Virus record (IMG/VR): IMGVR_UViG_3300029908_000007
Span: 98,309-162,308 of that record
Length of the DNA stretch: 64,000 bases
Origin: a virus
Reading direction: 5' to 3' (one strand)
A program made the translations under genes and the position numbers. A model generated the notes under the pieces. The model ran no database searches, was not told the DNA's origin, and saw nothing but the letters and a program-made list of their open reading frames with translations. Positions 38,429 to 61,189 of this stretch are shown here, piece after piece; within the stretch, counting starts at the first letter, position 1, and every line of letters starts with the position of its first letter.

Positions 38429-38457
38429 GATATATCACGGCGAATCTAGGAAGTCAA
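38429..38457 (-). promoter_or_regulatory. Promoter TTGACT-17-TATATC overlapping a TGATATA motif
   Basis: On the minus strand TTGACT (38452-38457), 17 bp, TATATC (38429-38434). It points at the gene starting at 38408; the predicted leader is about 14 nt and contains GAGGG. This is one of the clearer sigma70-like promoters here and overlaps the recurrent TGATATA. Confidence 0.5.
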
Positions 38458-38469
38458 GGATTATTTAGA

Positions 38470-40084: not shown

Positions 40085-40250
40085 TGGCCTCGTGTCCGCT
40101 TCTAAATTCTAACCTCAGGTACGAAAGATTTCGGTGTCATCGTGACACCGTTGCTTTCACGGCACCTGATCGCTTTTTGACCGTAGTCAAAATGCTAGCC
40201 GTTCCCTTCAGAGCTATGTTCTTTGCCGCATTTACGTCGGCATGGAACGC
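40085..40250 (-). ncRNA. Possible omega-RNA/right-end structure of the TnpB element
   Basis: In IS200/IS605 elements the guide RNA overlaps the 3' end of tnpB and runs into the element's right end. Here the tnpB stop lies inside a perfect hairpin CGGTGTCA-TCG-TGACACCG (40132-40150), and the downstream segment up to about 40085 is AT/GC mixed with further short pairings. Boundaries are guesses; no matching transposon end was verified. Confidence 0.3.
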
Positions 40251-41222
40251 GCTTTTACACGCGGTACAACTAAATGTACCATTCGTTCTACTCCGCTTGT
40301 CTACGTGGTTACAACTGGAACAGGTTTGACTAGTATATGCTGGATTTACTGTCCATACAAACACTTGTTCTTCCTGTGCTATTTGCTCACAACGACTTGC
40401 AAAGTAAGTTCTCGCCCACCCCTGAAGCTTTCCGCTTCGGAGATTGGCGATCACTTTTGGGTCTTCAACTACTAGATTCCACCCGTTTAGCTGTGCGACG
40501 CGCACCGCTCGACGGGCTTCAACATCAAGTATTTGTTTTAAATTTGTTTTAGTAGAATCGGATTTAAAGTGTTGGCCTTTTAGATTAGCTTGTCTTTGGC
40601 GTTCCGCTTTTTTAAGTCTTTGTTTTTTAATAACAACTGAGGTGTTCTGGCCAACATAGCCGTCACTACGAGCGACAGAATTACGATAGCCGACATCACA
40701 GCCCAGGCTTTGTTTCTTAGGGTGTGCTTTTTCAACTTCTTTTTGAACAAAGACTAAGGCATAGAATTTGCCGTTCTTATCTTTTACGAATTCACAAACA
40801 GGGTTGAGCGCGTAACCGCGCTTTAACCACTGATTTAATCTTTTATGACTTTTTACGGGAAGTAAGGTTTTTTTATTACTAAATTGGCTCTCAACTTTTA
40901 ACCAATAGTCGAAGATAGAATCTTTTGAGACTTCGATGGCTGCTGGGCAGCCAATGAAAGCTATTTTAGGAACGTTGGATTTATTATCGGTAGCCTTAGT
41001 TGCCGCACGGTGTGCGGCTAAGATGTTTCTAGCACGATGCTGGGCTTTGTTAGCAAGTCCTCCCATACCCGAAGTACTCAATGCCGCGCCATGGGGCGCA
41101 AAATAGAGTTGAGTTACAAAGTGTTGGGCATAAAGCAAATGTTTTTCATAGGTATACCTGGCCGCGTCGAGTTTCGACACGTTGGGGAAGATCGCTAGTT
41201 TTAAAGCTCTAGTAACTAACAT
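40137..41222 (-). CDS. tnpB: Stand-alone TnpB RNA-guided nuclease (IS200/IS605 family)
   Basis: A 361-aa protein with an apparently intact RuvC-like site: D176 in LGCDVGYRN, E253 in LVVEDPK and D329 in HADVNAAKNI. The zinc ribbon C301/C304 (CSSC) and C319/C322 (CTAC) lies between the last two. Length is normal for TnpB. No TnpA transposase lies beside it, so the element is either mobilised in trans or kept as a homing-type nuclease. Candidate left-end hairpins lie upstream (41281-41371). A TTGACT -35 lies about 35 bp before the start. Confidence 0.88.
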   Translation of the reverse strand: MLVTRALKLAIFPNVSKLDAARYTYEKHLLYAQHFVTQLYFAPHGAALSTSGMGGLANKAQHRARNILAAHRAATKATDNKSNVPKIAFIGCPAAIEVSKDSIFDYWLKVESQFSNKKTLLPVKSHKRLNQWLKRGYALNPVCEFVKDKNGKFYALVFVQKEVEKAHPKKQSLGCDVGYRNSVARSDGYVGQNTSVVIKKQRLKKAERQRQANLKGQHFKSDSTKTNLKQILDVEARRAVRVAQLNGWNLVVEDPKVIANLRSGKLQGWARTYFASRCEQIAQEEQVFVWTVNPAYTSQTCSSCNHVDKRSRTNGTFSCTACKSAFHADVNAAKNIALKGTASILTTVKKRSGAVKATVSR

Positions 41223-47239: not shown

Positions 47240-47256
47240 GCTGTTTTGGGATGTCA
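47240..47256 (-). promoter_or_regulatory. ATAGTTCTTGACAT motif (promoter -35 region)
   Basis: One of four copies of ATAGTTCTTGAC in the window (also near 51313, 54287 and 55618). It contains TTGACA and lies in the short gap upstream of the gene starting at 47213; the -10 is weak (TAGGCT at 17 bp). Confidence 0.4.
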
Positions 47257-47260
47257 AGAA

Positions 47261-47437
47261 CTATCTACGACCGTATGAAACGCCAAGTAAAAACATCGCC
47301 ATATGCGGTACCACGCTTTTGATACTTTCAAAAACCGCTTCGGTCCCGTTTTTAACCATAAATACTTCGGCCACGCAAGCCACTAAGTACATGAAGGCGA
47401 GGAAGGCTAGTGCTGATTTGGTGAAACCGTCGTTCAT
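47261..47437 (-). CDS. Small two-helix membrane protein
   Basis: The ATG at 47437 (after GGAG; ATGA overlap with the phosphatase stop) gives 58 aa: ALAFLAFMYLVACVAEVFMV and a second hydrophobic segment SVVPHMAMFLLGVSYG with a final RR. Size and topology are holin-like, but no lysis gene is adjacent. Confidence 0.5.
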   Translation of the reverse strand: MNDGFTKSALAFLAFMYLVACVAEVFMVKNGTEAVFESIKSVVPHMAMFLLGVSYGRR

Positions 47438-51270: not shown

Positions 51271-51355
51271 ACCTTCTCCTCCGCCCACTGTCTCACAAGG
51301 CCTGGCGGAAGTCAAGAACTATTTTATTAAGGGATTGTTAAATCAGGACACTTAT

Positions 51356-54258: not shown

Positions 54259-54290
54259 GATATAACAGGGTTTGGGGAATGTCAAGAACT
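54259..54290 (-). promoter_or_regulatory. Promoter ATAGTTCTTGACAT with 15-bp spacer and TATATC
   Basis: TTGACA (minus strand, 54280-54285), 15 bp, TATATC (54259-54264), with the ATAGTTC extension upstream of the -35 shared by three other sites. It drives the operon beginning with the gene at 54170. Confidence 0.5.
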
Positions 54291-54293
54291 ATT

Positions 54294-54926: not shown

Positions 54927-55204
54927 TGGTTCCCTTCTATCCTTTCCAACGCCGTCCTAGCTGGGCCCAAGTAGCTTAATGCGTTAAGAGCGTGTACGGC
55001 GATACTAAGTTTGTCTTCAAGCCTCATTCGGCCTTTCTCGCATTCCCAGCTTTCAAGACCACATTCGGATCTGTCTTCCACGGCCTGGGCGTAACCCCAA
55101 CGAGCACCTTCTTTGAAATTATACTTGGCGGTAGTTCGGGAATCGATAAAAGTATCGGAACCAGCTTTTTCAGCGGCATCTCGCAGCTTATTCTCATCGA
55201 TCAT
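54923..55204 (-). CDS. Hypothetical protein
   Basis: A 93-aa helical protein, KYNFKEGARWGYAQAVEDRSEC in the centre, a common small phage type. Coupled to the membrane gene upstream by ATGA. Confidence 0.5.
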   Translation of the reverse strand: MIDENKLRDAAEKAGSDTFIDSRTTAKYNFKEGARWGYAQAVEDRSECGLESWECEKGRMRLEDKLSIAVHALNALSYLGPARTALERIEGNQ

Positions 55205-55392
55205 GAAAAAATCCTCTTAATAGCCAGCCAAGCGCCCTTAAGTGCTAACAAAGTAAGAAGTAGCGGCCATATAAAAAACCAGGCAAGGTTTTCTGCTGAG
55301 GGATGCTTGCTGTCTTCGCTTAGTAAGGCGCAGAAAAAGCCGATGGCTATATAGCCTATAATTGTTAGGGCAATGATTTGATCCATATTCAT
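55201..55392 (-). CDS. Small membrane protein downstream of the structured leader
   Basis: A 63-aa protein with two hydrophobic segments (IIALTIIGYIAIGFFCAL and FIWPLLLTLLALKGAW). AGGAG lies 7-8 nt before the start. It is the first gene after the structured RNA at 55408-55583, so it is the gene most directly controlled if that RNA is regulatory. Confidence 0.55.
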   Translation of the reverse strand: MNMDQIIALTIIGYIAIGFFCALLSEDSKHPSAENLAWFFIWPLLLTLLALKGAWLAIKRIFS

Positions 55393-55407
55393 AAATCTCC
55401 TATATAT

Positions 55408-55583
55408 GCAAGGGCTGCTCGCGACTGCAGCTCAGATTGGACCCAAGATCATCTGTTCCGATCGGACTCAGCCAACTAGCCTGCTTGGGCGCTAGTTGTT
55501 GCGCATCTTCCGACTCGTGCGTGTCTCCAGCGGGATGCGAAGTAAGCCTCGCCACCTTCCCGCAGCTTCCCACGCCGCCTTGC
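55408..55583 (-). ncRNA. Candidate structured leader RNA (about 176 nt), family unknown
   Basis: Lies between a promoter (TTGACT-15-TATACT, 55592-55618) and the gene at 55392. It is GC-richer than its surroundings. The ends close with GCAAGG/CCTTGC. Inside I see GCGTG/CACGC enclosing GCGGGA/TCCCGC and GCGAGG-CTTA-CTTCGC, then CAACTAGC/GCTAGTTG with a 10-nt loop, CAGAT/ATCTG, and GCTGC/GCAGC. The 72-codon frame across it starts upstream of the predicted transcription start and has no coding look. Could be a riboswitch, ribozyme or trans-acting RNA. It does not match the cobalamin, tmRNA or RNase P cores. Confidence 0.55.
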
Positions 55584-55591
55584 CTAACTAG

Positions 55592-55618
55592 AGTATAACA
55601 GGGGGAATCAGAAGTCAA
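55592..55618 (-). promoter_or_regulatory. Promoter of the structured leader (15-bp spacer)
   Basis: TTGACT (minus strand, 55613-55618), 15 bp, TATACT (55592-55597), with the shared ATAGTTC extension upstream. Predicted start near 55585, two bases before the closing stem of the structured RNA. Confidence 0.55.
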
Positions 55619-55632
55619 GAACTATTTTGGGG

Positions 55633-58152: not shown

Positions 58153-58647
58153 ATGAAAACCCATTTTGAAACCGAAACCTGCTCTAGATGTCATGGAAGC
58201 GGCAAATATAGTTACTGCGAGCGTTTCGCCGATATCTGTTTTAAGTGCGGCGGCGCGAAAGTCGTTTTGACTAGTCGCGGCGCCGCTGCTAAGGCCTACC
58301 TTGAAAACCTATGTTCTAAGCCCGCTAGTGCGTTACAGGTAGGCGAGCGCGTCTTAGTCCATGGCATGACCTTGGGCGGTACGCTATTCAGCTATATCGC
58401 CACGGTTACATCAATTGAAGTCGACGCCGCCGATCCCTGTATTAGTACTAGCTTCATTGGACCCAGAAACCGCTATATTGAAGTAACGACTTCGCATCCC
58501 AAGTACGGCGAAAACCGTCAAGGCGTTTATAACAGTGATTTCCGAATGTATCCCGCTAATAATGAAAAATTAATAGCCAAGGCCTTGGAGTATCAATCCA
58601 GCCTGACTAAAAAAGGAGTTCCCAAGAAGTCTCGAAAAACCGCTTAA
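58153..58647 (+). CDS. Phage protein with DnaJ-type zinc finger
   Basis: A 164-aa protein. CSRCHGSGKYS and CFKCGGAK (about 10-37) form a two-C-x-x-C zinc domain of the DnaJ central type. The rest contains a beta domain (LQVGERVLVHGMT, IATVTSIEV) and a basic C-terminus. Frequent in large phages; role unknown. Confidence 0.65.
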   Translation: MKTHFETETCSRCHGSGKYSYCERFADICFKCGGAKVVLTSRGAAAKAYLENLCSKPASALQVGERVLVHGMTLGGTLFSYIATVTSIEVDAADPCISTSFIGPRNRYIEVTTSHPKYGENRQGVYNSDFRMYPANNEKLIAKALEYQSSLTKKGVPKKSRKTA

Positions 58648-60474: not shown

Positions 60475-60576
60475 ATGAGCTTCGCCATGATCTTAGCTAT
60501 AACCTTGGTAGGCCTGACTGACTTGTTGATCCTTTCGATCAGAGTCAACGGTGGGATTGGAGATTATTATGCTTAA
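60475..60576 (+). CDS. Tiny membrane protein
   Basis: A 33-aa frame MSFAMILAITLVGLTDLLIL, one helix, with GGAAGG upstream. Its stop overlaps the repeat-protein start by 8 bp, suggesting coupling. Confidence 0.45.
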   Translation: MSFAMILAITLVGLTDLLILSIRVNGGIGDYYA

Positions 60577-61189
60577 ATATAAATTACGACTTGATCTTAA
60601 ACTCAAACTAGGCTTTGTGACTCTATTTAGGATCGAGCGCATATCCAACGGAGAATTGGGCGGATACATTGAAAAAGAAAGTAACCTAAGTCAAGAAGGC
60701 TCGGCTTGGGTATACGGCGAGGCTCGGGTATACGGCTCGGCTCAGGTATCCGGCTCGGCTCAGGTATACGGCTCGGCTTGGGTATACGGCTCGGCTCAGG
60801 TATCCGGCTCGGCTCAGGTATACGGCTCGGCTTGGGTATACGGCTCGGCTCGGGTATACGGCTCGGCTCGGGTATACGGCTCGGCTCAGGTATACGGCTC
60901 GGCTCGGGTATACGGCTCGGCTCGGGTATACGGCTCGGCTCAGGTATCCGGCTCGGCTCGAATAGAAAATATTGAAGAAATTGTTAACTTTGTAATTGCA
61001 ATGAGTTTTTCTATAACAATTACACCAGACAATATCGCCATTGGCTGTCAGTTAAAAACTAGAAAGGAATGGTTTAAGGTTACTAAAAAACAGGCAATTG
61101 AAATGGGCTTGAAATCCGAATTATATCCGCATTACAAACAATTGCTTAAAACAGGTATGGCAATGGTGCCAGCTAGAAAAGGTAAATAA
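60569..61189 (+). CDS. Hexapeptide-repeat (beta-solenoid) protein with 18-bp DNA repeats
   Basis: The ATG at 60569 (after GGAG) gives 206 aa. After ~43 residues comes GSAWVY/GSAQVS/GSARVY repeated 14 times (~44-127), then a ~78-residue C-terminal domain. G-S-A-x-V-Y/S with period six fits a left-handed beta-helix or related solenoid. The repeats are near-identical at DNA level (60698-60949), so they are young and probably vary in number. Similar phage proteins are of unknown function. Confidence 0.7.
   Translation: MLKYKLRLDLKLKLGFVTLFRIERISNGELGGYIEKESNLSQEGSAWVYGEARVYGSAQVSGSAQVYGSAWVYGSAQVSGSAQVYGSAWVYGSARVYGSARVYGSAQVYGSARVYGSARVYGSAQVSGSARIENIEEIVNFVIAMSFSITITPDNIAIGCQLKTRKEWFKVTKKQAIEMGLKSELYPHYKQLLKTGMAMVPARKGK
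60698..60949 (+). repeat. Tandem repeat, 18-bp unit, 14 copies
   Basis: Units such as GGCTCGGCTCAGGTATAC differ at only two or three positions (CAG/CGG/TTGG, TATAC/TATCC). In-frame, within the hexapeptide-repeat gene. Confidence 0.9.

Follow-up and report, generated by a model that had tools for sequence, protein, structure and literature searches.

Structured non-coding RNAs of unknown function are, as such, known from phages, the closest described systems being ROOL and GOLLD, which are carried by phages and prophages and are often found near tRNA genes (PMC12286853). GOLLD is composed of a conserved and a less conserved region and many of its members exceed 800 nt (PMC12286853). Both classes are far larger than the RNA family considered here (~100-280 nt), which has another architecture and on which their own Rfam models fail. 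The cyanophage abiF, wcaG, manA and glnA motifs are likewise structured, located in phage genomes and found by comparison, but none gives a Rfam match here and wcaG, manA and glnA, unlike the present family, are described as cis-regulators (cited in PMC12197685). A further likeness is to the trans-acting phage small RNAs IpeX, which is processed from a longer phage transcript, SprY and IsrK (PMC12197685); however, these have named targets in particular hosts, whereas the present family keeps a closed multi-helix scaffold across very diverse phages.

The DNA analysed here (the window) comprises the final 64 kb of a virus record of 162,308 bases, which is classed as linear. An earlier note, made from the sequence of the window, had drawn attention to a GC-rich block of ~176 nt behind TTGACT-15-TATACT, with paired ends (GCAAGG/CCTTGC) enclosing several helices, which stops just before the ribosome-binding site (RBS) of a small membrane gene. 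All of these features were recovered on the minus strand; the block has a GC content of 0.57 against ~0.43 in the surrounding DNA, its ends GCAAGG (55578-55583) and CCTTGC (55408-55413) pair, the named helices lie within 55408-55583, and 15 nt, which hold the RBS, separate the end of P1' from the start of the 63-aa gene. As judged from the sequence comparisons below, the block belongs to a family of folded, non-coding RNAs not catalogued before, the members of which probably act independently and in trans through a constant scaffold and a fast-changing interior.

Promoter and fold of the window element

The features of the locus, in the direction of transcription, are as follows.

55611-55625, minus strand: phage promoter family box ATAGTTCTTGACTTC, holding the -35 TTGACT (55613-55618)
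55590-55597, minus strand: -10 region TATACTCT, with TATACT at 15-nt spacing or TACTCT at 17 nt
55408-55583, minus strand: RNA element, P1 to P1', 176 nt, matched by covariance model R2
55578-55583, minus strand: P1 5' strand GCAAGG, from covariation in 54 elements
55571-55575, minus strand: P2 5' strand GCGUG, pairing with 55519-55523; CG to UA covariation in relatives
55564-55570, minus strand: conserved internal loop, 5' side GGAAGCU (GRAAGCU in the family), from the alignment of relatives
55558-55563, minus strand: P3 5' strand GCGGGA, pairing with 55530-55535
55530-55535, minus strand: P3 3' strand UCCCGC, from pairing and covariation
55524-55529, minus strand: conserved internal loop, 3' side UGGAGA, from the alignment of relatives
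55519-55523, minus strand: P2 3' strand CACGC, from covariation
55432-55518, minus strand: hypervariable interior, with hairpin CAACUAGC/GCUAGUUG
55414-55431, minus strand: 3' hairpin GCUGC-AGUCGCGA-GCAGC, conserved loop AGU[C/A]GCG, abutting P1'; five of five stem pairs covary
55408-55413, minus strand: P1 3' strand CCUUGC, from covariation in 54 elements
55397-55401, minus strand: RBS AGGAG of the downstream gene, from sequence
55201-55392, minus strand: gene for a 63-aa hydrophobic protein, directly downstream, with a weak match to phrog_7899

The proposal that the block has a promoter of its own stands as regards the upstream box and has to be amended as regards the spacer. With up to three mismatches, the box ATAGTTCTTGACTTC, for which the sister promoters of the same phage share the motif AATAGTTCTTGAC[AT]T, occurs nine times in the window against 2.4 expected, a number reached by none of 100 shuffles. 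Sites of this motif on the minus strand precede genes at 38450-38464, 47250-47264, 51308-51322, 54278-54292 and 55611-55625; at several promoter-box sites there is only a short leader before the gene, the leader at 55408-55583 being exceptional in length. TTGACT-15-TATACT itself has a single occurrence in the window, with none expected by chance. However, the sister promoters, for example TTGACA-17-TATCCT, suggest a spacer of 17 nt to TACTCT rather than one of 15 nt, and with this spacing the transcription start would fall a few bases from P1.

Folding of the window element gave -71.2 kcal/mol against -66.8 kcal/mol in shuffles (z = -1.07; 31 of 200 shuffles were equally good), a stability so unremarkable that folding energy alone proves nothing. 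The claim from a single sequence was thus not statistically secure, and it is the comparative evidence which made it so. Within the interior of the window element, the sequence would allow a loop-loop interaction in which CCCAAG (55484-55489), the loop of the CAACUAGC/GCUAGUUG hairpin, pairs with CUUGGG (55442-55447).

Three further features of the window were observed. An open reading frame (ORF) at 40137-41222 (minus strand) resembles, by eye, a TnpB/IS200-family protein with a C-terminal zinc-finger motif, and the DNA around the 3' end of this ORF might specify a guide RNA. A protein encoded at 60551-61189 (plus strand) contains in-frame VYGSAQVSGSAQ-type repeats which have their source in a tandem DNA repeat, and a small protein encoded at 58153-58647 (plus strand) has an anti-TRAP-like zinc-binding motif scoring below the Pfam cut-off.

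Relatives and covariation

The suggestion that the block lies outside the known RNA families was borne out by a scan of the window with Rfam 15, in which no family reached its gathering score and nothing meaningful was found at E<=10; the classes tested included riboswitches, ribozymes, tmRNA, 6S, RNase P, ROOL, GOLLD, HEARO and abiF. In 16 relatives, and in the bacterial and isolate relatives, the only matches at gathering score were neighbouring tRNAs. A search of papers available without subscription and of a minority of preprints found no description of the motif, and earlier publication elsewhere is possible.

Neither phage nor plasmid sequences gave a meaningful match to the window element in a direct blastn search. 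For two neighbouring genes, the search for orthologues led to a single near-identical contig, which is 100% identical over the element and hence of no use for covariation. An exact 17-mer from the window, GGCGAGGCTTACTTCGC, matched five other contigs, the two of these that were inspected closely being coding coincidences (genes encoding GEAYFA). The route to relatives led from a baseplate gene to related phages and from these to a DNA search of whole records, in which two weak collinear matches were found at the beginning of a record of 164,830 bases (G005). The homologue in this record keeps GCGGCGUGGAAAGCUG and CUGGAGACACGC, while its closing helix is different yet perfect (AUUGUAGAGG/CCUCUACAAU). 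The conserved core, GUGGRAAGCUG...CUGGAGACAC, was searched for as the pattern GTGGRAAGCTGN{32,62}CTGGAGACAC, which recovered 65 stretches in viral contigs; all 64 of the new viral loci from this first scan match covariance model R1, which six of the nine matches in genome contigs fail, these being coding coincidences without closing helix or 3' hairpin. A second scan of the collection with the 5' half only (GCGGCGTGGRAAGCTGTGG) gave 16 further contigs, and all 16 fit the full model, including 3' hairpin and P1', at 49.7-96.6 bits. Covariance model R2, built from relatives with the window excluded, gives the window element a score of 81.0 bits (E 9.8e-20) and has no other match in the window or in the 162-kb record.

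Altogether 62 distinct elements were examined, comprising the window element, that of G005, viral contigs and three contigs from metagenome-assembled genomes. The shared architecture consists of P1, a 2-nt linker, P2, the internal loop GRAAGCU/UGGAGA, an optional P3, a hypervariable interior of ~30-160 nt, the 3' hairpin with its AGU[C/A]GCG loop, and P1'. A strict register holds in 54 of the 62: 4 nt separate the end of P1 from GUGG, and the first base of P1' comes 12 nt after that of GU[C/A]GCG. An earlier scan which allowed many offsets had chosen the same P1 position in almost all members. The window element has the exact P1/P1' offsets, P2 with the GRAAGCU/UGGAGA loop and the 3' hairpin abutting P1'. 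The invariance of the internal loop is overstated, as the search pattern imposed it in part.

From the 54 elements in register a gap-free alignment (54 x 70) was assembled out of fixed-length helical segments, the variable interior being left out. Of its 1080 helix cells 99.1% are paired, a proportion which drops to 31-43% if the partner is slid by one to three columns. Covariation in related elements had been named in the earlier note as a check, and both sides of a pair were found to have changed in a compensatory manner in 264 cells against 63.8 +/- 7.1 in shuffles. All six pairs of P1 covary, with 100% of cells paired, as do all five of the 3' hairpin, the pairing percentages of these two helices being somewhat inflated because both helped to select the sites; the variety of their pair types and the fixed offsets are spared this bias, and P3, unused in member selection, covaries in three of four pairs. 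In all 54 elements the GC content exceeds that of the locus (0.557 vs 0.443).

Distribution and exchange of the interior

The family was found in more than 80 phage sequences, with one to three copies per phage record, as well as in several isolated Pseudomonas phages and some bacterial chromosomes. A restriction of such elements to large phages is not supported, as relatives occur in small and large phages, on a plasmid and in bacterial chromosomes. Two synthetic consensus queries retrieved no relatives from the isolated-phage set, an apparent absence which was overturned once isolates were reached via a bacterial relative. The isolate relatives are PotUPM1, phi297, vB_PaeS-D14H, vB_PaeS-D14P, AUS531phi, a PACL phage, Persinger, Orimi01 and Ochrobactrum phage POI1126; these and a relative carried on a Roseomonas plasmid match at 35.0-61.8 bits. 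Weak matches in G006 and G007 (15-16.7 bits) are possible divergent copies and were excluded from the counts.

When 399 genomes of one bacterial phylum were surveyed with R2, there were two matches. One lies in the genome from which a metagenome-assembled contig of the set derives. The other, at 44.1 bits, is a chromosomal copy that shares P1, the linker, P2 and the 3' hairpin but has a short P2 loop; going by gene names read from the sequences, it is flanked by a treY-like gene on one side and by a convergent kinase-like gene on the other. Within the bacterial family to which this copy belongs ~28 of 75 genomes carry the element at 80-95% identity, the similarity stopping at the element boundaries, while in a class-wide survey with stricter filters four of 385 genomes matched, and the distribution across the class is thus patchy.

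Several observations lie at the margins of the family. Two weak matches (16.7 bits) in phages related to that of the window, at L117 905-1065 (minus strand) and L118 881-1041 (plus strand), are preceded by TTGACA and TATAAG and contain a GUAGCG hairpin; they are possibly a highly divergent branch. In two bacterial genomes (L166 and L167) the 3' part alone, 30-65 nt, is conserved, and these partial copies are perhaps remnants or recombination products. ORFs are annotated across the element in phages PotUPM1, D14P and phi297 (L168 1599-1931, L173 1493-1663 and L175 1512-1769), and the corresponding hypothetical proteins are probably spurious.

Five P. aeruginosa phages carry the element at the same site, where the gene upstream of it has been annotated either as bci or as a regulator, and this slot is occupied by two alleles in which flanks and scaffold are near-identical and the interiors unrelated. 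Between D14H and phi297, 143 of 146 positions of the upstream flank are identical and 26 of the last 30 nt of the element, as opposed to 45 of 127 in the interior; the phi297-type interior is also present in the other three phages. The interior has thus been swapped while flanks and scaffold stayed, which identifies it as a module that changes fast and can be separated from the retained scaffold.

Genomic context and possible function

The genes next to the element are unrelated to each other. Most have no known function, DNA-metabolism genes occur here and there among them, and the 63-aa gene of the window is not a conserved neighbour. Across the loci no accompanying protein family, no partner molecule and no consistently nearby recombinase was found. 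In length the window element is similar to the pRNA of phi29 (~174 nt), a molecule whose sequence diverges while its secondary structure is kept. That RNA, however, is not known outside phi29-like phages, and a terminase-like gene lies near only 11 of 84 loci of the present family.

The earlier note had read the block as an operon leader, perhaps a riboswitch, and of the alternatives a 5' leader which governs downstream translation in cis, as a riboswitch, a thermosensor or a binding site for a protein, survives best, though we consider it unlikely. The position of the window element, with only the RBS between P1' and the start codon, would suit such a role, as would the same-strand gene starts within 70 nt downstream of 28 of 56 elements, and conserved loops within variable stems recall aptamers. 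However, there is no consistent class of downstream gene, an alternative fold hiding the RBS is not apparent, and many copies stand alone, 14 of the 56 having no same-strand gene within 300 nt downstream. The copy in G005 has a promoter by sequence match (TTGACA-17-TATAAT) and is immediately followed by a convergent gene, and in the tandem array of G005 the P1 of every unit is directly preceded by a separate TATAAT-like box. The D14H copy is followed by an intrinsic terminator, again by sequence match (GCCCGGC-TCCG-GCCGGGC-TTTTTT), and the 103-nt copy of Persinger by a GC-rich hairpin and T-run (CCCCGCC-ACTC-GGCGGGG-TTTTT); the latter is absent from the list of a consensus terminator scanner, probably because flanking A-T pairs lengthen the stem into the T-run. 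The POI1126 copy lies between two tRNA genes, the second of which begins 5 nt past the element. A tandem array at L116 1030-1660 (minus strand) comprises two recognisable copies (89.4 and 28.1 bits) and a degenerate third without the conserved loop, all three behind a TATAAT-like box.

Sequence matches point to a transcription unit of its own (promoter, terminator) in several members, not in all, and many of those that lie within operons have no recognisable promoter. A test for -10 boxes over all members gave eight of 52 against 10 shuffled in the tested region, which is not significant, and promoters are therefore claimed for individual members only.

A self-cleaving ribozyme or processing element which trims phage transcripts is improbable. 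Known phage ribozymes also combine small conserved loops with variable stems and occupy positions inside operons, which fits the fully variable stems of this family and its frequent location within 30 nt after a stop codon; against this, no Rfam ribozyme matches, the element with its hypervariable interior is larger than most ribozymes, and stand-alone copies have terminators. We regard as similarly improbable an element acting at the level of DNA, be it a structured mobile-element end, a recombination site or a cassette boundary. The sharp boundaries and unrelated flanks of the bacterial copies, the partial copies and the exchange of interiors between phages would all be accommodated by it, but promoters and terminators are oriented to one strand, the element is co-stranded with its neighbouring genes in about three quarters of cases, and a recombinase is not consistently nearby. 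That the block is a 72-codon protein-coding frame, which the earlier note had named as its refuter, or a chance GC-rich fold can practically be dismissed: the frame is open in the window and the fold unexceptional in energy, but across the 54 elements no frame is preferred (sense frames are open in 17 of 54, against 24% +/- 6% in shuffles, with phases 6/6/6), the element lengths cover all three residues modulo 3, and the covariation already refutes both.

If the family does consist of independent trans-acting RNAs, as we favour, each would be a stable transcript or a product cut from a longer RNA, with P1 shielding its ends. A partner common to the family, probably a protein or ribonucleoprotein of the host, would hold the constant scaffold. 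What the RNA binds or blocks would be set by the variable interior, the change of which would be driven by host-phage conflict. In the window, the RNA would be made first from the phage promoter with its 5' end base-paired, and the 63-aa gene would be translated from read-through. More tentatively, the RNA may be an allelic effector common to phages and bacterial chromosomes, such as a decoy for, or an inhibitor of, the RNA-binding or defence machinery of the host.

Few conserved RNA classes with strong covariation lie outside Rfam, and the present one extends across very different phages. As several phage records call an ORF across the element, their annotation would be corrected. Accessible members exist in the P. 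aeruginosa phages phi297, AUS531phi, D14H, D14P and Persinger, and the swap of the interior within a near-identical locus constitutes a natural experiment on what the RNA recognises.
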